Source: a virus. From it: 34,538 nucleotides of DNA. The position numbers and the translations under genes are program-made. Below, in pieces: positions 2 through 34,538 of this stretch (the stretch's first letter is position 1; each line of letters starts with the position of its first letter). The DNA is taken from IMG/VR virus record IMGVR_UViG_3300032285_003291, positions 1 to 34,538 of that record. One strand, given 5' to 3'. Below the pieces are notes generated by a model. The model saw nothing but the letters and a program-made list of their open reading frames with translations, made no database searches and was not told the origin of the DNA.

Positions 2-928
2 TTCATCGGTGCTCCCCCTGTGGACATTGATGGCATTCGTGAACCTGTATCTGGTTCACTTATGTACGGAAATAACATCATCTCTGGTGCTGTTGTTCCT
101 TCCTCTAATGCTATTGGACTTCATTTGTATCCTATCTGGGAAGCTGCTTCTCTGGATGAATGGTTATACAATGGTGGACCTTTTCAACTTGTTGTATTTC
201 ACTTCCTCATTGGCATCTTTGCTTATATGGGACGTGAATGGGAACTTTCCTATCGTCTAGGTATGCGTCCTTGGATTTGCGTTGCATACTCGGCACCTGT
301 TGCTGCTGCGACTGCTGTATTCCTGGTGTATCCTTTCGGTCAAGGTTCATTCTCTGATGCTATGCCTCTTGGTATTTCTGGCACATTCAATTATATGCTC
401 GTCTTTCAAGCAGAACATAACATTCTGATGCACCCTTTTCATATGATGGGAGTTGCTGGTGTATTTGGTGGTTCACTTTTCTCTGCGATGCACGGAAGTT
501 TGGTAACCTCATCACTGGTTCGTGAAACCACAGAAACTGAATCGCAGAACTACGGTTATAAGTTCGGTCAAGAGGAAGAAACTTATAACATATGTGCAGC
601 TCATGGATATTTTGGTCGTCTTATCTTTCAATATGCGTCCTTTAATAACTCCCGTTCGTTGCACTTCTTTTTAGCAGCGTGGCCGGTAGTTGGTATTTGG
701 TTTGCTGCTCTTGGTGTTTCTACCATGGCTTTTAATCTGAACGGACTAAATTTTAACCAGAGTATTCTTGACTCTCAAGGACACGCAATCAACACTTGGG
801 CAGATATCCTAAATCGTGCCAATCTTGGGTTTGAAGTGGTCCACGAAAGGAACGCCCATAACTATCCTTTGGATCTTGCTGCAGTATCTACTACTGAAGT
901 TGCTTTGACTGCTCCAAGTATTGGATAG
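2..928 (+). CDS. psbA: Photosystem II D1 protein, 5'-truncated by the window edge
   Basis: This is the D1 reaction-centre core protein of photosystem II, an auxiliary metabolic gene that keeps host photosynthesis running during infection. The frame is open from base 2 and its first residue aligns with about residue 52 of cyanobacterial D1, so about 51 N-terminal residues lie outside the window. The visible 308 codons give a full-length protein of about 359 residues, the usual size. Key residues can be seen by D1 numbering: redox-active Tyr161 (VYPFGQG), Asp170 (SFSDAMP), Glu189-His190 (QAEHN), His198 and His215 (SAMHGS). The tail runs past the processing site (PLDLA, then a C-terminal extension ending TAPSIG). 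No intron interrupts the visible part. The last 38 bases overlap an antisense endonuclease gene. Confidence 0.98.
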
Positions 929-1325
929 CCCTTAAAAGATTGTAGGAATTATCTTGGAAATAACCAAGAGCATAGTTACATCTATGACACAAAAGTCCTC
1001 TAACATTCTCTGTCTTGTGGCAGTGATCTACATGGAATTTATTATATCTTCCACCTGGATCTGATGTTTCACAAATAGCACACTTATTTTCTTGTGACTC
1101 CAGTAGGAATGTAAATTCTTCTGGGGTCATTTTATATTTTGAGAATAAATGTTGCTCTGCTCTTTCTTTTTTTGTGCGTCTATCTCTTTTACTTTTTCTA
1201 CTTCTATCGCAGAAATTACACATAGACCTGTGACCTTCTCGGTAAGTTCCATCTTTTCTTTTCACTCTAATTTTATAGAATTCATCAAGAGGTCTGGTAG
1301 TGTTACAATGTGTGCAGTATTTCAT
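891..1325 (-). CDS. EndoVII-like HNH endonuclease, probable free-standing homing endonuclease
   Basis: A 144-residue nuclease of the phage recombination endonuclease VII family. The N terminus carries a small Cys motif (CTHC, then CNFC at 36-39) seen in many free-standing phage copies. The catalytic zinc domain is at about 80-122: C82-x2-C85, the H98-V-D-H101 core, and C113-x2-C116-N117 in the typical [10 protein letters not shown] context. T4 EndoVII resolves Holliday junctions, but short copies beside conserved genes usually act as homing endonucleases; that role is inferred here from its place. It is antisense to psbA, and its last residues and stop are written inside the psbA 3' end. A TATAAATA late-type element lies 25 bases upstream of its ATG. 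Confidence 0.88.
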
Positions 1326-1571: not shown

Positions 1572-1955
1572 ATGCTTTCCTACATGGAACTCTATAATTC
1601 TTCTTCAGATTATTTGTATCATTTACATACGAGTTCATCAGCAGAAGCAAAACGAATATGGAGAAAGTCAATTCGAGAAAAATGGAATAATAAATGTGCT
1701 TACTGTGGAGGCACAAATAAACTCACGATTGACCATGTAGTACCACAATGTAAAGGTGGTAGTGATTTTCTTACAAACGTAGTATGCTGTTGTGAGGAAT
1801 GTAATCGCTCTAAAGCACATTCCGACTGGGAAACCTGGTATTATAATCAATACTTCTTTACAGAAGAACGAATGACTGCTATAGTGAATTGGATGAAACC
1901 TCAAACTAATGAAAATCTATATAAGTACAGACCAAGAAGAAATAATGCATCTTAA
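1572..1955 (+). CDS. HNH endonuclease, probable free-standing homing endonuclease
   Basis: A 127-residue HNH nuclease of the classical McrA-like type. Visible motif: C42-x2-C45, then IDHVVP with catalytic D54-H55, GGSD, N69, C74-x2-C77, N78 and K81. Two Cys pairs hold a structural zinc and the His/Asn residues form the beta-beta-alpha-metal active site. The N-terminal 35 residues and the C-terminal 40 (Trp-rich, then basic) may contact DNA. It is the second endonuclease downstream of psbA and differs in type from the antisense one. The start is uncertain: ATG 1572 gives 127 residues and ATG 1584 gives 123; neither has a clear Shine-Dalgarno sequence. It is followed by a hairpin at 1976. Homing function is inferred from size, family and location. 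Confidence 0.85.
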   Translation: MLSYMELYNSSSDYLYHLHTSSSAEAKRIWRKSIREKWNNKCAYCGGTNKLTIDHVVPQCKGGSDFLTNVVCCCEECNRSKAHSDWETWYYNQYFFTEERMTAIVNWMKPQTNENLYKYRPRRNNAS

Positions 1956-4564: not shown

Positions 4565-4764
4565 TGAGATATAAAGAAACTATTAGGTTAGTTAAAAAAG
4601 CACTTAAGACGCCTCATCTGTATTCTGAAGAGGAAATTCTTTATATGAAAAAAGCACTTGATAGTGCTTTGATTGCTCTTGCTCAAAAAAAATATAACAA
4701 AAAGAAAAAAGGTTTTGGAAATTATGAAGACCCCAGCAGTCAAACTGATACAAGCAACTCCTGA
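4564..4764 (+). CDS. Small Lys-rich helical hypothetical protein
   Basis: A 66-residue protein from the ATG at 4564 (a TTG three bases earlier is also possible). Residues 1-50 are strongly helical and basic (RLVKKALKTP; EEILYMKKALDSALIALAQKKY), and the end is polar (EDPSSQTDTSNS). It overlaps the previous gene by one base and thyX by 41 bases, so its last 13 codons double as the thyX start. Function is unknown; the basic helices would fit nucleic-acid or protein binding. Confidence 0.65.
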   Translation: MRYKETIRLVKKALKTPHLYSEEEILYMKKALDSALIALAQKKYNKKKKGFGNYEDPSSQTDTSNS

Positions 4765-5395
4765 TGCAGAAAAACATATTGCTTATTGTGCTCGTGTAAG
4801 CAATCCAAAAAATCAAGAGAATAGTTCTTTTGAGGGATTGCTTAGATATTGTATCAAGAATCAACATTGGAGCATTTTTGAACATGCATTCCTTACAGTT
4901 GAGATTAATACCTCGCTTGCGATTGCTACGCAGATCCTCCGTCATCGGAGCTTTACTTTTCAGCAATTTAGTCAGAGGTATGCAGACAGTACAGAACTTC
5001 AACTTGAAATTCCTGTACCTGATCTGCGGAGACAAGATACAAAAAATAGACAAAATAGTACAGATGATCTTGGAAGTGATCTAAAAGAAACTATGAGTTT
5101 ATTGATCAAAAAGCATTTTGAAGAGAGTTTGAATGTTTACAATCTTCTTCTTGCTCAGGGTGTTGCGAAGGAATGTGCTCGATTCGTGCTTCCGCAGGCG
5201 ACACAAACACGTCTTTATATGTCTGGGAGTATTAGATCCTGGATTCATTATATTGACCTTCGTAGTGCTCACGGGACTCAGAAAGAGCATATGGAGATTG
5301 CTGAAAACTGTAAGTGTATTTTTGTAAATCAATTTCCTATGATTGCTTCGGCACTTGATTGGGTATGTAATGACCCACCTTCACTTCTATTCTAA
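4724..5395 (+). CDS. thyX: Flavin-dependent thymidylate synthase ThyX
   Basis: A 223-residue ThyX that methylates dUMP to dTMP using methylene-tetrahydrofolate with FAD and NADPH, supplying thymidine for this AT-rich genome. The diagnostic RHRx7SxR motif is complete: R73-H74-R75, S83, R85. The conserved N-terminal region (VSNP, then IFEHAFLTVEI) and the C-terminal substrate region (RFVLPQATQTRLYMSGS, RSAHGTQKEH) are present. The start is ATG 4724, because MKTPAVKLIQATPDAEK matches the usual cyanophage N terminus; upstream codons belong to the overlapping small gene. Length is standard for phage ThyX. It is transcribed from the promoter at 4347. Confidence 0.96.
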   Translation: MKTPAVKLIQATPDAEKHIAYCARVSNPKNQENSSFEGLLRYCIKNQHWSIFEHAFLTVEINTSLAIATQILRHRSFTFQQFSQRYADSTELQLEIPVPDLRRQDTKNRQNSTDDLGSDLKETMSLLIKKHFEESLNVYNLLLAQGVAKECARFVLPQATQTRLYMSGSIRSWIHYIDLRSAHGTQKEHMEIAENCKCIFVNQFPMIASALDWVCNDPPSLLF

Positions 5396-9306: not shown

Positions 9307-9966
9307 TTATACCCCAGTAAGTCTTGGGTTATATGTTGATTTATTTGTTTGATTAATATAATCAGATGAAGATCCATATTTCATAGAATTTTTCAAGTCA
9401 CTAATCATTACTGATAGATAATCTGGTTTCAATACTCTAATTTTTCTCTTATCTTCATTTAAACTTGTTTCATATTCATAATTGGTCACTTGTTTGGTTG
9501 GATTTAATGTGACTCTACTGTAATCAGTTTTTGAATATGTAATTGTAAAGTTTGAATCAACTTTGAGTCCAGCAGGAATTACAACTCTATTATAATTATC
9601 TAAAACTTCAGTAGTTTCGTGATGATGTATATTTGATATATTTTCATCAGAACCATACTTTTCTAGCATGTAGTTATATAAATCATAATTACTCAATGGC
9701 CATTGTTGTCTTATGTTTGTGATGTTATTTGTATGTAAAATGACCCAATCCAATTCTGAATTGTTATAAACTTTATTTGCAATTTGTTCTGGTCTTTCGT
9801 TGTCTAAAATTTCATAATAAACAAAAGCAGTAATGACATTAATAATATCATTTCTAATTGCTGCTCTTTTAAATATATTTTTGACAGTAATATAGTTTTC
9901 GTTTGAATCTGAATCTGGTAAACGAGAAAGATATTGTAAATTTGGTAGTTCTTTGAAATAACTCAT
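9307..9966 (-). CDS. 53: Baseplate wedge protein gp53
   Basis: A 219-residue gp53-like protein (T4: 196). In T4 it joins neighbouring baseplate wedges and contains a LysM-like fold. The recognisable block is FVYYEILDNERPEQIANKVY followed by ELDWVILHTNNI, the family's most conserved part, at about 47-82. The C-terminal half is beta-rich with a Lys/Asn-rich end. It is the last gene of the minus-strand operon, starting one base beyond the gp48 stop codon. It converges on gp32. Confidence 0.88.
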   Translation of the reverse strand: MSYFKELPNLQYLSRLPDSDSNENYITVKNIFKRAAIRNDIINVITAFVYYEILDNERPEQIANKVYNNSELDWVILHTNNITNIRQQWPLSNYDLYNYMLEKYGSDENISNIHHHETTEVLDNYNRVVIPAGLKVDSNFTITYSKTDYSRVTLNPTKQVTNYEYETSLNEDKRKIRVLKPDYLSVMISDLKNSMKYGSSSDYINQTNKSTYNPRLTGV

Positions 9967-19346: not shown

Positions 19347-19553
19347 ATGGAATTAAAAGAACTTATTGATAAAATTTGCGAAGAAGTGCATTATTCGCAA
19401 AATGAACAAAGAAAAAGATATCTGGAAAGTTATCTTCAGGAACTTTTATCTTATCAAAAAAATAATCCAAATGAAGATAAAGTTCCGACTCCGTTGCAAT
19501 TATATTGCAACGACCACCCAGAAGCATTAGAGTGTAGATTATACGATGATTGA
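19347..19553 (+). CDS. Small conserved hypothetical protein between gp27 and gp5
   Basis: A 68-residue protein. The N-terminal two thirds are charged helix (ELIDKICEEVHYSQNEQRKR), followed by VPTPLQLYCNDHP and the short end ALECRLYDD with two cysteines. I recall this ending (PxPLxLYC...ECRxYDD) as common in small cyanophage proteins, but know no function. It overlaps the gp5 gene by 8 bases, so it is probably translated together with it and may be an assembly factor for the hub. Confidence 0.7.
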   Translation: MELKELIDKICEEVHYSQNEQRKRYLESYLQELLSYQKNNPNEDKVPTPLQLYCNDHPEALECRLYDD

Positions 19554-22395
19554 AGAAAGTTTATTAAAATCCAATTATATTGGAAAAGATGGTTTTACTT
19601 GGTGGATTGGTCAAGTGGCACATTCTTCCGTTTGGGCAGAAAAATCAGAAATGTCTTTAGAAGGTACTAAAGATGGAGTATGGGGAGCAAGATGTAAAGT
19701 TAGAATAGTTGGATATCATTCCTTTGATGGAAATATTCTTTCTGATGATGATTTGCCTTGGGCACAAGTAATGCTAGACCCTTCCTTTGGAAGTGCTCAA
19801 GGTGGTATTGGAGGAACATTGCATCTAAGAGGTGGTGAAACTTGTTTTGGATTTTTCTTGGATGGGGATGATGGACAACAACCAGTAATTATTGGATTAC
19901 TTTACCGTAGTGATGGAACAAAAAACTTACAGACAGAAGATGTCGTAACAAAAGAAAAAAGTTCAAAGTTCAAACCTTTTACTGGACATCCTGGAAATCT
20001 AATTAAACCATCACAAAAAGATAGCAGAGCGTCAAAATCTTTTACAGAAGCAGAGACATCACCATTATCTCAAGCATCTGCAACAAATATTGCCTTTAAG
20101 TCTGATTTTGGATTTAGCAGTACATCAACAACCAATAGTGCAACAATACAACAGTTTGGTGATAAAATTGCAGGAATTAAATCTGGTATTCCTGCTGCAT
20201 CTACTCTTTCGGTAGAAAAAAAGGCAGATATTACTTTAGTTAGACCAAATGGATGTGAAAATAATTTAATCGGACAGATTACACAAGCAATACAAGACTT
20301 TATTGCAGTTACAAATGGACTTGATAGATATTTGCATACTTATATTGATCCAATCTTAAATGAAGTTGTAAATGTTGGAAATTTAGTAAAAAAAACGGCA
20401 AGTCAAGTTCTTGGAATTGTAAAATTAATTATTAATAATTTAAGAGGTACAATTTTTAAATGTATTGCTTCATTATTTCGTAAGTTAGTTGGATTGGTAG
20501 TTCCACCACCACAACAAACAATTGTTTTGGAAGCAATGAAGAAAATTTTGGATACAATATTTTGTATTCTTGAAAAACTTCCTGCTAGCCTTCTTAATTT
20601 TATTGAAAATATGCTTAGTGATTTGATTTCTCCAATAAATGCACCTGCTTGTGCTATAGAGCAATTAACTGCTGGTATTCTTTCTGAAATGATAAATGCT
20701 ATTGAAGATGCACTTGCAGATATTATGTCTGGAATTAGTTGGTTGACTAATGGATTGAGTTCAATTACTGGAATTCTAAATCAAGCAAGTTCATTAGCAT
20801 CACAAATTTTAAGTTTTCTTGAATGTACTGGACTTGCTTGTAAGACTCCAAGTGTTTGGGCTGCTAAATTTGGACCAAATGAAAAGGAAGCAGACGATTG
20901 GCAAAAAATGGTCTCTAATGTGAATGTATTAAATGGATTAAGTAAAGATTTGGGTTCTATTGAAGCAGCAATTGGAGAAACACCAATTTATGGTGGAATT
21001 AATGGAAGACTCAATTCTTTGTTTAATACTTGCAATCAAAAAGTAACAAATCCAACAAATCAAAATGATATAATACCATTACCCCCTGGAGTTAGATATC
21101 CAAGTTGTATTCCTCCAATTGTAAGAATTGTTGGTGGTGATGGAATTGGTGCTAATGCAGTTCCGATTGTTGGTGCAAATGGTTCAATTTTTTCAGTAGA
21201 AGTAATTAGTGGTGGATATGGATATAACACAAAACCAACAGTTGTAATTGTGGATAATAGTGGATATGGAAGTGGAGCAACGGCAGAGGCAGTCATTGAG
21301 AACCAAAAAGTAACTTCGATCTATGTAACGAATTATGGTTCTGGGTATTGTGCCGGAAATTATACTGGTATTGGATTTACATCTCCTTCTTCTGGTATTG
21401 GATCTACATCTCCTTCTTCTGGTATTGGATCAACATCTACTTCTTCAGTCAAACCATCTATAGTTTTAAAATTAACTTCTTCTAAGAATAATATTATAGA
21501 AGGAGATAAATTTGATGTAATTCTTAATACAGAAAATGTAAATGATGGTGCAAAATTTGATTATACGATTACTGGCATTCAAAGAAATGAAATTGATAAA
21601 GATTTGAAAGGATCTTTTGTGATTAATAACCGAACTTCTATCTTATCAATTCAAACAAAAAATAATCTTCTATATGATAAAGAACTTTTTACTTTAAAAC
21701 TGAATGATTACAATAAATCTATTGACGTTTTATTTAATAAAAAACAAGTTACAAATAAAGATACACAATACATTTTAACTACTTCTTCCGATTTCATTAC
21801 AGAAGGGGAAAGTTTTGTGATTAAATTGCAAACTAAAAATATACCAGACAATACATTAGTTTCTTATTCTATTTCTGGAGTTAATTCAAGAGTATTAAAT
21901 AATTCCCCTCTAGTCGGTTCATTTCAAGTTATACAAGGAAAGGCAGAGATTTCGATTAAAACAATTAAAGGTGTGATAGATAAAAATTCTATATTTAGAT
22001 TAGTACTTGATAATAAGAAAGCATCAGTTAGTGTATTAATAAAGGTGATAGCAAAATCTACTCCACCACTAGGAATTAGAACTGATGTGAGTGGTTGTAT
22101 TGAGAAAATAATAGTAATATCTCCTGGATATGGTTATACGACTGGAGATAGAATTACTGATGGAAAAAATACATATACTCCAATTGTTTCTCCTGGTAGT
22201 GGTGCAATTGTAAATATATTACCACTTAATAGTCCAATTTGTGGTTTTACAGAACCTCCAGATCTCACTATAAATACAAGAACAGGTGTTAGTGCTCAAG
22301 TTATTCCACTTATGAAATATTATCCTTCATACGATACAATAGAACAACAAAAACTAACATCAATAGGAAGTACTTCGGTTATTGATTGTATATGA
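19546..22395 (+). CDS. gp5-type OB-fold hub protein, no lysozyme domain
   Basis: A 949-residue baseplate protein. Residues 1-130 form a gp5/VgrG-type OB domain (WWIGQVAHSSVW; WGARCKVRIVGYHSFDG; DLPWAQVMLDP; GFFLDGDDGQQPVIIGLLYR). The T4 gp5 lysozyme domain is not visible. Residues 240-480 are long hydrophobic helices (LIGQITQAIQDFIAV; LEKLPASLLNFIENML). About 530-605 is a Gly/Tyr-rich beta module (VISGGYGYNTKP; YVTNYGSGY). A three-copy GIGSTSPSS repeat leads to two related 90-residue beta domains (IVLKLTSSKNNIIEGDKFDV and ILTTSSDFITEGESFVIKL) and a second Gly/Tyr module near the end. Its stop overlaps the spike gene (ATGA). It is unusually long for a gp5 relative (T4: 575). Confidence 0.78.
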   Translation: MIEESLLKSNYIGKDGFTWWIGQVAHSSVWAEKSEMSLEGTKDGVWGARCKVRIVGYHSFDGNILSDDDLPWAQVMLDPSFGSAQGGIGGTLHLRGGETCFGFFLDGDDGQQPVIIGLLYRSDGTKNLQTEDVVTKEKSSKFKPFTGHPGNLIKPSQKDSRASKSFTEAETSPLSQASATNIAFKSDFGFSSTSTTNSATIQQFGDKIAGIKSGIPAASTLSVEKKADITLVRPNGCENNLIGQITQAIQDFIAVTNGLDRYLHTYIDPILNEVVNVGNLVKKTASQVLGIVKLIINNLRGTIFKCIASLFRKLVGLVVPPPQQTIVLEAMKKILDTIFCILEKLPASLLNFIENMLSDLISPINAPACAIEQLTAGILSEMINAIEDALADIMSGISWLTNGLSSITGILNQASSLASQILSFLECTGLACKTPSVWAAKFGPNEKEADDWQKMVSNVNVLNGLSKDLGSIEAAIGETPIYGGINGRLNSLFNTCNQKVTNPTNQNDIIPLPPGVRYPSCIPPIVRIVGGDGIGANAVPIVGANGSIFSVEVISGGYGYNTKPTVVIVDNSGYGSGATAEAVIENQKVTSIYVTNYGSGYCAGNYTGIGFTSPSSGIGSTSPSSGIGSTSTSSVKPSIVLKLTSSKNNIIEGDKFDVILNTENVNDGAKFDYTITGIQRNEIDKDLKGSFVINNRTSILSIQTKNNLLYDKELFTLKLNDYNKSIDVLFNKKQVTNKDTQYILTTSSDFITEGESFVIKLQTKNIPDNTLVSYSISGVNSRVLNNSPLVGSFQVIQGKAEISIKTIKGVIDKNSIFRLVLDNKKASVSVLIKVIAKSTPPLGIRTDVSGCIEKIIVISPGYGYTTGDRITDGKNTYTPIVSPGSGAIVNILPLNSPICGFTEPPDLTINTRTGVSAQVIPLMKYYPSYDTIEQQKLTSIGSTSVIDCI
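21364..21444 (+). repeat. Three tandem 27-bp repeats (GIGSTSPSS)
   Basis: Units at 21364-21390, 21391-21417 and 21418-21444 encode TGIGFTSPS, SGIGSTSPS and SGIGSTSTS. The two joins are exact. They form a flexible linker between the Gly/Tyr module and the paired beta domains of the hub protein. Confidence 0.9.
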
Positions 22396-28494: not shown

Positions 28495-28499
28495 TGTAT

Positions 28500-28572
28500 G
28501 CCCGTGTAGTCCAGCGGCAGAGACAGAGGACTTAAAATCCTTCCAGGGTCGGTTCGAATCCGACCACGGGCA
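28500..28572 (+). tRNA. tRNA with anticodon UAA (Leu by codon), short variable loop
   Basis: A 73-base cloverleaf. The acceptor stem GCCCGTG/CACGGGC is perfect over 7 bp with discriminator A28572. The anticodon stem is GAGGA/TCCTT with loop CTTAAAA, giving anticodon TAA (28533-28535) for codon UUA. The T arm is GTCGG-TTCGAAT-CCGAC. The variable loop has only 5 bases (CCAGG), although leucine tRNAs normally carry a long variable arm. The D stem is short (GTC/GAC). No CCA end is encoded (TAAAA follows). It would help decode UUA, frequent in this AT-rich genome. Amino-acid identity is inferred from the anticodon only. Confidence 0.88.
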
Positions 28573-28621
28573 TAAAAATATAGTGTCTAAATAAGACAGA
28601 AGAAATATCTGTGCTTATAAA

Positions 28622-31600
28622 ATGCCATTATCAAGGTTAGAGAATTTTTTAAAGAATGCTGAAGGAAATATTCTTTATGTTAATCCTTCAGATTTTGATG
28701 CTACGGATAGTTATGAGAATAAAGGAAATTCTCTAGCTCGTCCATTTAAAACTATACAAAGAGCTATAATCGAATCCGCAAGATTCTCGTATCAAGTAGG
28801 AAGAAATAACGATAAGATTGATAAAACTACAATTCTTGTATATCCAGGCACACATTATATTGATAATCGTCCTGGATTTGCACTTAAGTCTGATGCAACT
28901 CTTTATAAAAGAACAGGTTCGGGTTCTGGTGCAACTTGGACTACAAGTGGAGCAACAATTACAGAATTAGGATCTTCTTTCAATACAGACATTTTTAATG
29001 CAAATAATGATCTGTATAAGGCAAATTCTTGTTTTGGTGGTATAATTATACCTCGTGGTACATCTATTATTGGTATAGATTTAAGAAAGACAAAAATCCG
29101 CCCGCTTTATGTCCCAGATCCTTTAGATGATTACATTGAAAACTCTTCTATTTTCAATGTTACCGGAACTTGTTATTTTAGTACATTCTCTTTCTTGGAT
29201 GGTGACCCAACTAGAAGTGTTTATAAAAATTATACCGATACAACTTTTGTTCCAAATTATTCTCACCATAAACTAACAGCATTTGTATATGCTGATGGAG
29301 TAAATCAGGTTAAATTGGGAACTACTGAAACAGGTCTAACTGATCTTCAGATGTATTATTATAAAGTAGGACTGATATATGGTACTGCATCTGGAAGATC
29401 TCTTGCCGATTATCCTACTGGTGTTGATTTTGAACCATCGGTAGATGAATATCGTATTGTTGGTAATTTGAGTGCAAATCCAATTGGAATTACAAGTATT
29501 CGTGCTGGAGATGGCATTTCACCAACTCAAACAATTACTGTAAATACAAGTTCAGAACACGGATTGTATGTCGATACTCCTTTCTTAGTGAGTGGTGTCG
29601 GAATAGATACAAGTGTTTATAATGGATCTTTTACGGTAAGAGAAGTTGTAGGACTTACAACATTTACTTATACCGCATTAAGTTCTCCAGTAGTTGCATT
29701 ACCAGATGTAAATACACAACTACAAAATGCTCAAATTGTAATAGAAGCAGATAGTGTATCATCAGCTTCTCCATATATTTTTAGTTGTTCCTTAAGATCT
29801 GTTTATGGAATGTGTGGAATGTTTGCCGATGGGAGCAGAGCAACTGGATTTAAGTCTATGGTTGTTGCTCAATTTACTGGCATTTCACTTCAAAAAGATG
29901 ATAATGCATTTATTGAATATGATTTGGTCAGTAAATCATTTAAAAATAATAATGAATCATCACATTCTCCATTACACACATATTCGAACTCAATTTATAA
30001 ACCATCATATGAAAATTATCACATTAAAGTAACAAATGGTGGATTTATTCAGTGTGTTTCGATTTTTGCGATTGGTTATTCGAGACACTTTGTTTCAGAA
30101 AGTGGTGGAGATATGTCCATCACCAACTCAAACTCTAACTTTGGTGCAGTTTCTTTAGAATCTGGTGGTTTCCGTGTAGATTCTTTTGATAGAGATAATA
30201 CTGGTTATATTACTCATATTATTCCTCCAAGAGAATTAACAACACTAGAAACTGAAGTTACTTGGTTATCTTTAGATGTATCACAAATAATATCGGTCGC
30301 TAATACGTCTCGTTTGTATTTGTTTGGATATAAAAATCAAGAGATTTCTCCACCTCACCAAATTGATAGTTATAGAATTGGAGCAAAGCAAGGCGACTTG
30401 CTCAACTTAACTGTAACTGTTGGTGCTGCACTTACTACTTATACTGCTCCAATTTTAATGCAGTCTCCAGATGGAACTACATTTAACTCAAAGAAAACTT
30501 CATTTGTTGCAAGAAATGTAGGAATTAATAGTATTACAAATAATATTTTTACATTAACTAGCAATCATAAGTTCTATAACGGTGAAAAAGTTAGAGTTTT
30601 TAGTGATAATGCAGAAGGACCAAGTAATATTGAGTTGAATAAAGTTTATTATGTAAGTACAACTGGATCACCAAATTCTATTAAACTTTCACCGACTTAT
30701 AATGATGCAATTGCTGCAACTCCAAGAACAATTAGTGATATTAACAATCTTGGTGGAAATCTGACAATTATAAGTTCTGTAACCGACAAGCAACCAGGAG
30801 AATTTGGACATCCAATTCAATATGATACTTCAGTATCTTCTTGGTATATTAATAGTTCTTCTTCTATTCAAGACAATAACATTTATTCTACAATCGTAGG
30901 TCTTGGTACAACTGGACTTGGATTGGAGACTAGTTCTGTATTTATTAAGAGAAAACTAGACAATCGTTCTCTTGCTGATCGTGTTTATAAACTTCGTTAT
31001 GTAATACCAAAAGAAGCAACGAATGCTCGTCCACCAGTTTCTGGTTACATACTTCAAGAATCAAGTACTACTGGAATTGGAAGTGCAAGTATTTTGACTG
31101 GAAATCTTGCAAGTCCTTTGGATTTAAGAAATCCAAAAATTATTACAAATGCATCGTATTCTTCAAATACTATTACAGTTACAACTGAACTTCCACATAA
31201 CTTTAAGACTGGTGATGGAGTCAGAATACAAAATATAAAAAGTACAAATAATCCTGTTGGATCTGCATCTTCTACTTTTAATGGTTCATTTAGAATTTCT
31301 TCAATTCCAAGTTCAAAGATTTTTACAATTTCTGGAATTTCTACAGATCCTGGAACATTTACGAATATTACAAATCAAAGAACTACAAATCAACAAGTTG
31401 CTGCTCTTCCAAAAGTTTATCGTGAAAGATATGAAAGTACGTTCTTTATTTACAGAATAGATGAAATCAAAAAGCATATTTCTGGTTCTTCGATTTCTGG
31501 TCAGGATGGAATTTATCACTTAACTGTGATGAGTTCTGATGTTTCCCCAACACTTGCAAATGTTGGATATGGCATTAGTCTTAAAAACTTTAATCAAGAT

Positions 31601-34538
31601 GTAAGAAATCTTTATCCTCAATTGGATCGTGATAATTACAACTCTGATCCAAATGAAACATCTTCTTATTCTAATGTGAAACCTCTTGGTGGTACAAATG
31701 TTGATGATAGAAGACATTCCGTTACAAGAGAAGCAATTAATACCTTTTTAAAAGAAAATACTGTTGGATATGCAATTACTGGAGCAATTGTAAGTGGAAC
31801 TGCAGTTACTTTTTATACAGATAGAGAGCATAATTTAAATTCTATCAAAACTTTATCTTTATCTAGTGGTGGTTCTGGTTATGGTTCTACTACTCTTTAC
31901 TCTGCAGAACTTGTAAATTCTTCAATCACAGGAAGAAATGGTTCAGTAAAAGCAACTTTAGGTGGTGGTGGAGGGATTTCTGCAATTCAAATTGTTGATA
32001 ATGGTTCTGCTTATTCTATTGGAAATACGATGACGGTATCAGGAGGAACTACTCTTGGAATTGTATCTGTAACTTCTATAAACAATAATATTGGTGATGC
32101 ATTGCAGGTTGTGGGGGTTTCTAGTGATGGATATAATGGTGTATTTAAAATTACTGGTGTCCCTGATGCAAAATCAATCACTGTTTATAATCCAAATAAT
32201 GTATCAGCATTTGTGTCTAGGACAGACGGAAAATCACCTTTTGTTGCAGTTGTAGGAAAGGGATCTTCGATTGCAAGTTTAAGTTTTAGTGATATTAGAA
32301 CGGGAATTGCAACTATTACTACTACAAATTCTCACGGATTACTTGTTGGGAATAAGTTTTCAATCGTCGGAACAGCACATACAATTTACAATAACTCATT
32401 TGTAGTTAAAGAGGTTGTTGGTCTTACTACAATCACATTTAATATTGGAATCGTAACTTCAACACAATCATATACTGGTGGTGGATATGTTTTAAGGCAA
32501 GGAATTGCAGCAAATGCTCTTGCTATCGGTGAAGGAGAAATTAATCTTGGTGGACGTTCTTCTTACATCTATGCTGGTATAAGTACTACACTTTCATCTG
32601 CATTGAGTGCTTCTGATACTTCGATAGTACTTGCTGATATTGGTGGATTTAGTAAAGGAGATTTTATTCAAATTAATTCTGAAGTTCTCCGTATTATTGA
32701 TGATGCTTGTAGTTTAGTAATTCGTGGACAATTTGGTACTGTTTCTGCTGCAGCAGATAATGGAACACTAGTAAAGAAGATTCGTGTAATACCAATTCAA
32801 TTTCACCGTCCATCATATCTTCGTGCATCTGGACATACCTTTGAGTATCTTGGATTTGGACCAGGAAATTATTCAACTGGTATGCCTCAAAAACAAGATA
32901 GAGTGTTGAGTACTGATGAAGTTATTGTTTCTCAAGCAAGAGAACAAGATGGGGGAACAGTTGTTTATACTGGAATGAATGATCTTGGAGAATTTTATTC
33001 TGGTGCAAAGAAACTTGTTTCTGTAACTGGTGAAGAAGAAGTCTTTGATGCACCTATTTTTACATATACTGGTGATGATGCAAATACGGATAGTACAAAG
33101 AGATTGAGTGGAGTTTTTGATGATTTGGTTGTAAGAGATCGAATTACTGTAGAAGGTGGAGAAAATAACAATCAAACTTCGCAGTTTTATGGTCCAGTCA
33201 ACTTTACACAAAAAGTAACAAGTACTTCTACTGCTGGTGCTGAAATTCGAAATTTATTCCTTAAGGGGAATACTGCACAACCAAAACTAATCACAGTTGG
33301 AATATCAACTCCAACTTCTGCTGATATTCCTGGTGCTCGTTCTGGTGATGTTTCATTCCTAGGAACACCACAAAGAAGTGGATATGTTGGACACATTTAT
33401 GTTGATGGAGATTGGAGAAGATTTGGACCAATTAGTTCCGAAAAGGATTTATCTTATTATAGAATGGATAAATTGGGAATTGGTCAAACTTCAGTAGTTT
33501 TTAATGGTAATGAACTTCTTGAGGTGAACGGAACCGTCAAGATGAAAAATCTATATGTTACTGAAAATGTAACATTTATTGCTCAACAAACTTTTTCAAA
33601 TGTTGCTTTTGAAGGTATTACAATTTATAATGGAGCTACTTTCCCAGGAACTCCATCAACTGGCGGTATTGCTGTAACTGCTTATACACAAAAACATCTT
33701 CAAGGCATTTCGCAACTTTATAATTTAGAAGTTGTTGGTACTGCAGCAACATTTAATAGTGCAAATCTAACTGTTCAGAGTTCGCTGAATTCGACTTATC
33801 TTGGAATTTCTACATTCCTTGGTGGTTTGTATGTTGGATTTGCTACATTTGCAAATGTGACTGTTACTGGTATTACTACAACCAATAACTTAAATGTAAC
33901 TGGAATTGTAACTGCAAAATTTGGTCCAATAATTGGGGCAGGATTTAGTGGTGCTACATCTGGTGTTACGACTCTTCGTTCCGAATCTGTTGCAGGAGGA
34001 ATTTTAACATTACCGACAGTTGCAGTTTCAGATACATTAGCTGCAAAAGAAACTTCAGATATATTCAAAAATAAAACAATTTCTACTACTTATAATACGA
34101 TTAGTGGATTAACAAATGCAAATCTTTCTGGAACTGCTGGAATTACAAATGCAAATCTAGCAACTCCTACGATTTCTGGTATTTCACTTGGAAGTAATCT
34201 TGCTACATTAACATTTGGGACATATTTGACTGGAACTTCTTATAATGGTTCTACTGGTGTTACGATTGCAACAAATGCTACAAGTTCTAATACTGGAAGT
34301 ACATTAGTTGCTCGTGATGCTTCTGGTGATTTTGCAGCAAATAGAATTACATCATCTATTAAAGCAAATGGATTGACCGAAGGTGTAAGTGTAAGTGGTT
34401 CTTCTCTTACTGGTTCTGTTAATATTGATTTGATTTCAAATAATGTTTATTATTATACTGCACCTGCAACTGGGAATTGGACACCCAATTTCCAGGCAAA
34501 TTCTTCTACGTCATTAAATACATTCCTTTCAGTAGGAG
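28622..34538 (+). CDS. Giant tail fibre/structural protein, 3' end outside the window
   Basis: The frame is open from ATG 28622 to the window end: 1,972 codons without a stop. The N terminus (MPLSRLENFLKNAEGNILYV; then NPSDFDATDSYENKGNSLAR and PFKTIQRAI...ILVYPGTHYIDNRPG) is the start of a large conserved cyanomyovirus structural protein with a pectin-lyase-like beta-helix appearance; I believe relatives are called VrlC-like. Repeating Thr/Ser/Gly beta segments follow, including a Gly/Tyr module at about 31845-32049. The distal visible part has fibre repeats (TGITTTNNLNVTGIVTAKFG; STLVARDASGDFAANRITSS) typical of T4-like fibres. Probably a baseplate-attached fibre or large baseplate-ring protein. 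The ATG has no strong Shine-Dalgarno. Confidence 0.88.
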   Translation, partial: MPLSRLENFLKNAEGNILYVNPSDFDATDSYENKGNSLARPFKTIQRAIIESARFSYQVGRNNDKIDKTTILVYPGTHYIDNRPGFALKSDATLYKRTGSGSGATWTTSGATITELGSSFNTDIFNANNDLYKANSCFGGIIIPRGTSIIGIDLRKTKIRPLYVPDPLDDYIENSSIFNVTGTCYFSTFSFLDGDPTRSVYKNYTDTTFVPNYSHHKLTAFVYADGVNQVKLGTTETGLTDLQMYYYKVGLIYGTASGRSLADYPTGVDFEPSVDEYRIVGNLSANPIGITSIRAGDGISPTQTITVNTSSEHGLYVDTPFLVSGVGIDTSVYNGSFTVREVVGLTTFTYTALSSPVVALPDVNTQLQNAQIVIEADSVSSASPYIFSCSLRSVYGMCGMFADGSRATGFKSMVVAQFTGISLQKDDNAFIEYDLVSKSFKNNNESSHSPLHTYSNSIYKPSYENYHIKVTNGGFIQCVSIFAIGYSRHFVSESGGDMSITNSNSNFGAVSLESGGFRVDSFDRDNTGYITHIIPPRELTTLETEVTWLSLDVSQIISVANTSRLYLFGYKNQEISPPHQIDSYRIGAKQGDLLNLTVTVGAALTTYTAPILMQSPDGTTFNSKKTSFVARNVGINSITNNIFTLTSNHKFYNGEKVRVFSDNAEGPSNIELNKVYYVSTTGSPNSIKLSPTYNDAIAATPRTISDINNLGGNLTIISSVTDKQPGEFGHPIQYDTSVSSWYINSSSSIQDNNIYSTIVGLGTTGLGLETSSVFIKRKLDNRSLADRVYKLRYVIPKEATNARPPVSGYILQESSTTGIGSASILTGNLASPLDLRNPKIITNASYSSNTITVTTELPHNFKTGDGVRIQNIKSTNNPVGSASSTFNGSFRISSIPSSKIFTISGISTDPGTFTNITNQRTTNQQVAALPKVYRERYESTFFIYRIDEIKKHISGSSISGQDGIYHLTVMSSDVSPTLANVGYGISLKNFNQDVRNLYPQLDRDNYNSDPNETSSYSNVKPLGGTNVDDRRHSVTREAINTFLKENTVGYAITGAIVSGTAVTFYTDREHNLNSIKTLSLSSGGSGYGSTTLYSAELVNSSITGRNGSVKATLGGGGGISAIQIVDNGSAYSIGNTMTVSGGTTLGIVSVTSINNNIGDALQVVGVSSDGYNGVFKITGVPDAKSITVYNPNNVSAFVSRTDGKSPFVAVVGKGSSIASLSFSDIRTGIATITTTNSHGLLVGNKFSIVGTAHTIYNNSFVVKEVVGLTTITFNIGIVTSTQSYTGGGYVLRQGIAANALAIGEGEINLGGRSSYIYAGISTTLSSALSASDTSIVLADIGGFSKGDFIQINSEVLRIIDDACSLVIRGQFGTVSAAADNGTLVKKIRVIPIQFHRPSYLRASGHTFEYLGFGPGNYSTGMPQKQDRVLSTDEVIVSQAREQDGGTVVYTGMNDLGEFYSGAKKLVSVTGEEEVFDAPIFTYTGDDANTDSTKRLSGVFDDLVVRDRITVEGGENNNQTSQFYGPVNFTQKVTSTSTAGAEIRNLFLKGNTAQPKLITVGISTPTSADIPGARSGDVSFLGTPQRSGYVGHIYVDGDWRRFGPISSEKDLSYYRMDKLGIGQTSVVFNGNELLEVNGTVKMKNLYVTENVTFIAQQTFSNVAFEGITIYNGATFPGTPSTGGIAVTAYTQKHLQGISQLYNLEVVGTAATFNSANLTVQSSLNSTYLGISTFLGGLYVGFATFANVTVTGITTTNNLNVTGIVTAKFGPIIGAGFSGATSGVTTLRSESVAGGILTLPTVAVSDTLAAKETSDIFKNKTISTTYNTISGLTNANLSGTAGITNANLATPTISGISLGSNLATLTFGTYLTGTSYNGSTGVTIATNATSSNTGSTLVARDASGDFAANRITSSIKANGLTEGVSVSGSSLTGSVNIDLISNNVYYYTAPATGNWTPNFQANSSTSLNTFLSVG

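Follow-up and report, generated by a model that had tools for sequence, protein, structure and literature searches.

A putative leucine tRNA without a long variable arm in a cyanophage-like sequence, and its relatives in phages and bacteria

The viral sequence analysed here, a window of 34,538 nucleotides comprising positions 1 to 34,538 of IMG/VR record IMGVR_UViG_3300032285_003291, carries a gene for a tRNA in which a leucine anticodon occurs without the long variable arm, and the product of this gene is very probably a working leucine tRNA that would be charged by leucyl-tRNA synthetase (LeuRS). Judged from sequence comparisons, the likeliest role is that of a leucine-charged short-arm tRNA, predicted to serve both UUA and UUG, and belonging to a large natural family. 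We infer the charging and expression of this tRNA, its presumably cyanobacterial host and any benefit to infection.

A single tRNA was detected in the window by ARAGORN (tRNA-Leu(taa), 28499-28573, plus strand), and Rfam RF00005 matched positions 28500-28572 with 56.4 bits (E 9.6e-10), above its gathering score of 29; the gene, placed at 28500-28572 on the plus strand, has no encoded CCA. As read from the sequence, the acceptor stem (28500-28506 with 28565-28571) forms all seven of its pairs, while the anticodon stem has 5 bp including one G-U pair and the T stem 5 bp. The D arm (28509-28524) has a 3-bp stem with a C13.A22 mismatch and a D loop of the leucine type (G18 G19 C20 A20a G21 A22), and U8, A14, G18G19 and A20a are all present within 28507-28524. 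The anticodon TAA (28533-28535) reads the codon UUA, and UUG is also readable by a UAA anticodon through wobble. The variable loop (28543-28547) is CCAGG, and at 5 nt it is shorter than the variable arm of at least 10 nt that marks a class II tRNA. ARAGORN, Rfam RF00005 and the sequence itself are thus in agreement with the initial annotation, which had described a UAA anticodon and a variable loop of five bases. The last base of this loop, G48, lies opposite G15, so that the Levitt pair is G15-G48 and not the A15-U48 of E. coli. At the 3' end, the discriminator (28572) is A73, the main determinant for LeuRS (PMC9976931). With A9, the C13.A22 mismatch, a D loop of the form GGNAG(A/G), a 5-nt variable loop, A73 and the UAA anticodon, the window tRNA shows every feature by which the short-loop family is defined here.

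Relatives of this form are numerous among phages. A BLAST search with the 73 bases returned 165 phage records with E values no greater than 1; in 69 of them the match spans 80% or more of the query, and among the 60 matches listed a tRNA-Leu is annotated in phages of Synechococcus, Prochlorococcus, Pseudomonas, Vibrio, Bacillus, Myxococcus, Streptomyces and Rhodococcus, the arm length having been read in the three phages S-SRM01, S-CREM1 and P-SSM7. A pattern requiring the short loop matched at least 120 stretches in IMG/VR. When ARAGORN was applied to the window and 242 viral loci (L002-L243), 1118 tRNAs were found and 1117 measured, a tRNA of L099 with a two-base anticodon being left out; at least 121 short-loop tRNA-Leu(UAA) genes, that of the window included, stood beside 88 long-arm ones, a ratio set by the choice of loci. 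The other leucine anticodons, which occurred as neighbours, gave short/long counts of 19/14 for UAG, 10/6 for CAA, 3/4 for GAG (one of the three short rows, in L029, looks mis-parsed), 2/2 for AAG and 1/0 for CAG, meaning that short loops were seen with all six leucine anticodons. The corresponding counts in the same contigs were 1/61 for serine and 1/21 for tyrosine, and of the three kinds of long-arm tRNA, widespread arm loss is therefore limited to leucine in these viral contigs. In the 80 listed of 120 stretches from one of the IMG/VR scans, 14 had a short-loop tRNA-Leu(UAA), 49 a long-arm one and 17 neither; this short-loop share is biased, as the GTTCAAGTCC T arm, which many long-arm forms have, does not fit the scan pattern. 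The initial annotation had stated that many known phage leucine tRNAs of the same form would count against its proposal, and such tRNAs are supplied by the 121 or more phage genes for short-loop tRNA-Leu(UAA); its assumption of a class II structure for leucine tRNAs cannot be generalised to bacteria and phages.

Further unusual phage tRNAs were observed. As a reverse anomaly, 11 viral tRNA-Ile(UAU) genes (L126, L155, L159, L161, L012, L032, L034, L063, L068, L092 and L223) have a variable region of 21-24 nt, within which CAGATTAG or CAGATAATTGG is found in nine of the 11, and a D arm that is short or odd in 10; their sequences suggest a conserved phage family of isoleucine tRNAs with a long arm. 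The contig L157 carries serine-like long-arm bodies with G73 and the asparagine anticodon GUU at 4717-4803 and 9473-9559 (-), which are candidates for a mismatch between anticodon and identity, as well as two long-arm CAU tRNAs. In Prochlorococcus phage P-SSM7 (L512:28124-28210), an annotated tRNA-Asn of 85 nt with a long variable arm lies near a short-loop tRNA-Leu(UAA), and in L093 (3304-3394, minus strand) the lysine anticodon UUU is found on a long-arm body in the same tRNA cluster as a short-loop Leu(UAA) and a long-arm Leu(UAG). The tRNA-Leu(taa) row of L099 departs from the leucine family in having G73 and a 4-bp D arm of the usual class I type, and the amino acid of this UAA tRNA may differ from its anticodon.

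The strongest evidence for a leucine function is natural replacement, the short form being the sole UAA-anticodon tRNA identified in Leucobacter coleopterorum and in the picocyanobacterial genome G325. A GTDB scan with the same short-loop pattern gave at least 117 stretches, in which ARAGORN found at least 93 short-loop tRNA-Leu(UAA) genes; 24 of the 117 loci had no such gene, and a long-arm UAA gene was not found by ARAGORN in these stretches of 8 kb or less. Among the 80 of 117 titles listed, 64 loci were short-loop, 46 of them Actinomycetota as assigned by name. Only 17 of 296 genomes drawn from the phylum of Leucobacter matched the pattern, so that only a minority there has the short form. 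Leucobacter coleopterorum has a complete chromosome, in which all 45 tRNA loci from the Rfam model (44 distinct sequences) were read: the leucine tRNAs with CAA, CAG, GAG and UAG anticodons have long arms and UAA is present in the short form only; a looser pattern matched two further places, neither of which overlaps a tRNA match. Similarly, all 41 tRNA loci found in G325, a single contig of 2.2 Mb, were read, and its four other leucine tRNAs are long-arm while UAA occurs in the short form only. The possibility that a long-arm tRNA-Leu(UAA) is hidden in picocyanobacteria because an intron splits it was rejected, since a group I intron able to do so had no match in 13 genomes including G325, with a positive S. 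elongatus control.

The distribution within the picocyanobacteria was assessed in 61 genomes drawn from the Synechococcus lacustris family, which stands nearer to the probable hosts of the phage. The genomes were classified by matched-string length, ARAGORN confirming the loci that were read: tRNA-Leu(UAA) was long-arm in 50, short in 7 and neither in 4. In one of the seven (G358) the gene lies inside a small tRNA cluster, which may be mobile. Inspection of the regions around trpA and ndhL in 13 chosen genomes, 10 long-arm and 3 short-arm, placed tRNA-Leu(UAA) within about 0.5 kb of ndhL in all 13. The 10 long-arm genes are oriented away from ndhL, and the three short-arm genes (G309, G333 and G345) are co-oriented with it, as are, beyond these 13, those of G325 and S. 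lacustris. In these picocyanobacteria tRNA-Leu(UAA) has thus been replaced in the same neighbourhood and in the opposite orientation, which suggests that a second gene was gained and the first lost rather than that the arm was trimmed. The short-arm ndhL regions show synteny among themselves, with 65-80% nucleotide identity, which speaks for an old chromosomal residence of the short-arm gene. The native long-arm tRNA-Leu(UAA) has the anticodon, A73 and the ndhL neighbourhood in common with its short-arm replacement, but its variable arm is 15-17 nt long in the rows read, and three native genes tested against the window tRNA gave 43-46 matches over 84-88 aligned columns. The five chromosomal short-arm tRNAs have an acceptor stem identical to that of the window tRNA and 59-62 matching bases over 73-74 columns.

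A FastTree phylogeny of 375 tRNAs (377 rows, two merged by name) contained a split, with a support of 0.95, that had 112 of the 117 long-arm leucine tRNAs on one side and 236 of the 258 short-loop ones on the other, in a tree that is rough given the short sequences and the dependence of columns 9, 13 and 46 on the arm itself. The remaining 22 short-loop genes fall among long-arm bodies, 15 of them with UAG, CAA, AAG or CAG anticodons, so that loss of the arm probably occurred repeatedly. The closest neighbours of the window tRNA are tRNAs of other phages, and the picocyanobacterial chromosomal ones that have its acceptor stem group apart; the tree therefore gives no support for deriving the window tRNA directly from the chromosomal form. 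One plausible direction of transfer is from phage to host, and a possible route is offered by the known phages that inactivate a tRNA gene of the host and bring a copy of their own (PMC10865867). It is possible, though less likely than not, that the short-arm leucine tRNAs are a mobile, phage-shaped lineage that entered the chromosomes of bacteria and took the place of their own long-arm tRNA-Leu(UAA), so that these hosts came to rely on a phage-type tRNA for UUA; in a picocyanobacterial group including Synechococcus lacustris this would have occurred beside ndhL, with the gene in flipped orientation.

A possible explanation for the loss of the arm, compatible with leucine charging though in our judgement unlikely, is that the short form is an escape variant, in which the arm was lost as the handle of a host toxin, nuclease or modification enzyme while charging with leucine was kept. 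The restriction of wide arm loss in phage contigs to leucine tRNAs would fit such an origin, but no system recognising this arm on tRNA-Leu was found in the portions of the literature consulted, and the bacteria that have the gene in a syntenic chromosomal place use the short form as well.

The window also contains psbA and a PhoH-like gene, and is therefore taken for a fragment of a T4-like cyanophage. Small ORFs beside psbA at 891-1325 (-) and 1572-1955 (+) have, by eye, cysteine/histidine patterns like those of HNH endonucleases, and S-SRM01 has endonuclease genes within and after psbA. The tRNA gene is flanked by a small ORF and, downstream, by a tail fibre gene (28622-34537, plus strand, phrog_529) that is open at the window end; further upstream lies a gp5-type baseplate hub/tail lysozyme gene (19546-22395, plus strand, phrog_1922). 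The same kind of tRNA is found downstream of the hub/lysozyme gene in S-SRM01 and S-CREM1, both Kyanoviridae, and in S-SRM01 a tail fibre gene likewise follows the tRNA, one small ORF further on. All 73 tRNA bases recur identically in L094, a viral contig closely related to the window (98% over 3886 bases), and 72 of the 73 are the same in Synechococcus phage S-SRM01, a recurrence that places the sequence far from chance. This conservation bears on the alternative that the tRNA is unused in translation and is either decaying or a decoy, for example a bait for host defences that cut tRNAs. Evasion of tRNA-targeting defences has been proposed for phage tRNAs (PMC10264068), and the predicted minimum-energy fold (-26.2 kcal/mol, against -24.6 kcal/mol for the cloverleaf) is not a cloverleaf. 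Against this stand the 72 of 73 bases kept in S-SRM01, whose proteins have a median identity of only 48% to those of the window (23 ORFs), the integrity of every stem, the recurrence of the form in many viral contigs, and the relatives that must work in Leucobacter coleopterorum and G325; decay or a decoy function is accordingly judged very improbable.

The D arm of E. coli tRNA-Leu has a 3-bp stem and a 13-22 mismatch. According to excerpts of a 2023 review of tRNA identity (PMC9976931), leucine identity in E. coli resides in A73, D-loop/T-loop contacts, G18G19, A20a and A15-U48, the last called essential in an E. coli selection, whereas the anticodon and the long arm are dispensable and variants without the anticodon arm and the variable arm are still charged. 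The window tRNA has A73, A14, G18G19, A20a and the 3-bp D stem with its 13-22 mismatch in common with this class II tRNA, and differs from it and from its minimal laboratory variants in a short loop that is natural, in A9 and C13, and in having G15-G48 instead of A15-U48. The features were compared in 115 distinct phage and 90 distinct bacterial short-loop UAA tRNAs, 119 long-arm leucine tRNAs, 73 long-arm serine tRNAs and 814 other class I tRNAs. A73 was found in 114/115, 90/90, 118/119, 5/73 and 470/814 of these, respectively, and the 13-22 mismatch in 111/115, 90/90, 116/119, 55/73 and 117/814. The motif GGNAG(A/G), that is G18 G19 N20 A20a G21 A/G22, together with a 3-bp D stem, was present in 88 of the 115 phage, 86 of the 90 bacterial and 64 of the 119 long-arm leucine tRNAs, while outside leucine it was seen in none of the 73 long-arm serine tRNAs and in five of the 814 others. 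The combination of A9 and C13 characterizes the short-loop tRNAs (103/115 phage, 82/90 bacterial) as opposed to the long-arm UAA rows (0/86); the long-arm UAA tRNAs compared have G9 with G, A or T at position 13. The 15-48 pair of the 115 phage rows is A-U in 73, G-C in 28, G-G in 10 and other in 4, which puts the window in the G-G minority. Overall, the window tRNA has the leucine features that a bacterial LeuRS reads (A73, A14, G18G19, A20a and the 3-bp D stem), with G15-G48 as the deviation, and this G15-G48 core may lower its charging.

A body-only classifier was also applied, from which the anticodon was excluded and which had no short-loop leucine tRNA in its training set; duplicates and rows with fewer than five acceptor pairs were removed, the window tRNA being represented by the identical row of L094. 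In leave-one-out testing, 812 of 1027 tRNAs were called correctly, including 113 of 119 for leucine. For the 115 phage UAA rows the top call was Leu in 52, Tyr in 16, Cys in 15, Ile in 11, Met in 9, Lys in 8 and other in 4, and for the 90 bacterial rows Leu came first in 31 and Lys in 32. The window sequence itself was narrowly assigned to Leu (3.1 versus 1.6 for Cys). We read these results as probably reflecting the short-loop family's own core (A9, C13) rather than another identity, the 13-22-46 contact probably having been re-set in this family.

The residues that UUA faces in homologous proteins were examined in both host and phage. Between G325 and its long-arm relative G310 (133 orthologue pairs, those below 45% identity excluded), UUA codons of G325 faced leucine at 74 of 106 sites (70%), compared with 70-79% for its other five leucine codons. 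UUA makes up 2.1% of the leucine codons in the G325 genes compared, and with a codon so rare even a poorly charged tRNA might suffice there. For the phage, 26 ORFs of the window with homologues in S-SRM01 or S-CREM1 were used, the P-SSM7 piece giving no homologue usable in this test. UUA, which accounts for 28% of the leucine codons in these ORFs, faced leucine at 90 of 191 sites (47%), followed by Val (18), Ile (15) and Phe (13). The other leucine codons faced leucine at 81/140 sites for UUG (58%), 129/212 for CUU (61%), 34/55 for CUA, 21/30 for CUC and 25/34 for CUG, so that UUA faces leucine less than every other leucine codon (58-74%), with no other residue standing out.

Most synthetases, with the exception of those for leucine, serine and alanine, also read the anticodon, and among these we know of none for which UAA with A73 would serve. 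The alternative raised by the initial annotation, that the tRNA carries another amino acid and that UUA is ambiguous or reassigned during infection, could draw on the short-loop body unlike that of a textbook tRNA-Leu, on a body-only classifier that is indecisive for the family, on the somewhat lower share of phage UUA codons facing leucine, and on the differing 15:48 interaction, which contributes to cysteine and proline identity in bacteria (PMC9976931), but it is rejected as hardly credible in the face of A73 with the leucine D-loop signature, of all six leucine anticodons occurring on short loops, of two fully read tRNA sets in which the short form is the sole UAA-anticodon tRNA, and of alignments in which leucine is the residue most often opposite UUA in phage and host, and then Val, Ile and, in the phage, Phe, as with the other leucine codons. 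The other reading in that annotation, charging with leucine despite the short loop, gains indirect support from the leucine determinants, the two bacteria with a sole UAA tRNA and the finding that UUA faces leucine most. On this reading of a leucine-charged tRNA, the host LeuRS would recognise A73, the core formed by the D loop and T loop (A14, G18G19, A20a) and the acceptor end, and would add leucine without needing the long arm; the 3' end would be completed by the host CCA-adding enzyme, and the charged tRNA would then decode UUA and UUG.

Among known systems, the animal mitochondrial tRNA-Leu(UUR) is likewise a leucine tRNA for UUA and UUG without a long variable arm, and in humans its charging relies on A73 and A14 (PMC9976931). 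It differs in being organellar and served by its own mitochondrial LeuRS, whereas a bacterial LeuRS is expected for the phage tRNA, which has a bacterial leucine D loop with A20a. A bacterial parallel is the short-loop tRNA-Leu(UAG) of a mycobacterial tRNA cluster, which, as described in part of PMC6582537, comes from genomes that have a normal isoacceptor with a larger loop elsewhere; it differs in its UAG anticodon and in being an extra copy in a cluster. A published leucine-anticodon tRNA without the long arm was, in the portion of the report consulted, described as an isotype mismatch with seven differences from a methionine tRNA, possibly a silenced pseudogene, whereas the phage tRNA has leucine-type features. 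Other natural short-loop bacterial tRNA-Leu genes besides the mycobacterial UAG gene were not found in the open-access papers searched, and the excerpts of a review of tRNAs with unusual structures do not mention a short-arm bacterial tRNA-Leu (PMC7609411). In the excerpts of a 2008 study, short-arm leucine tRNAs were noted in a global tree, their source not being stated there (PMC2474678). A description of the short-loop tRNA-Leu(UAA) family as such was likewise not found in these papers.

In textbooks, leucine tRNAs are invariably given a long variable arm, those of animal mitochondria excepted. The available text of the 2023 identity review makes the same statement (PMC9976931), which the short-loop family contradicts. 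A leucine anticodon on a short loop is insufficient alone for calling a tRNA mis-assigned. A natural short-arm family, whose members are sometimes the sole tRNA for UUA, would provide ready-made substrates for studying what a bacterial LeuRS requires, and the picocyanobacterial case would make it possible to trace how a host tRNA gene that is presumably essential gave way to a phage-like one.
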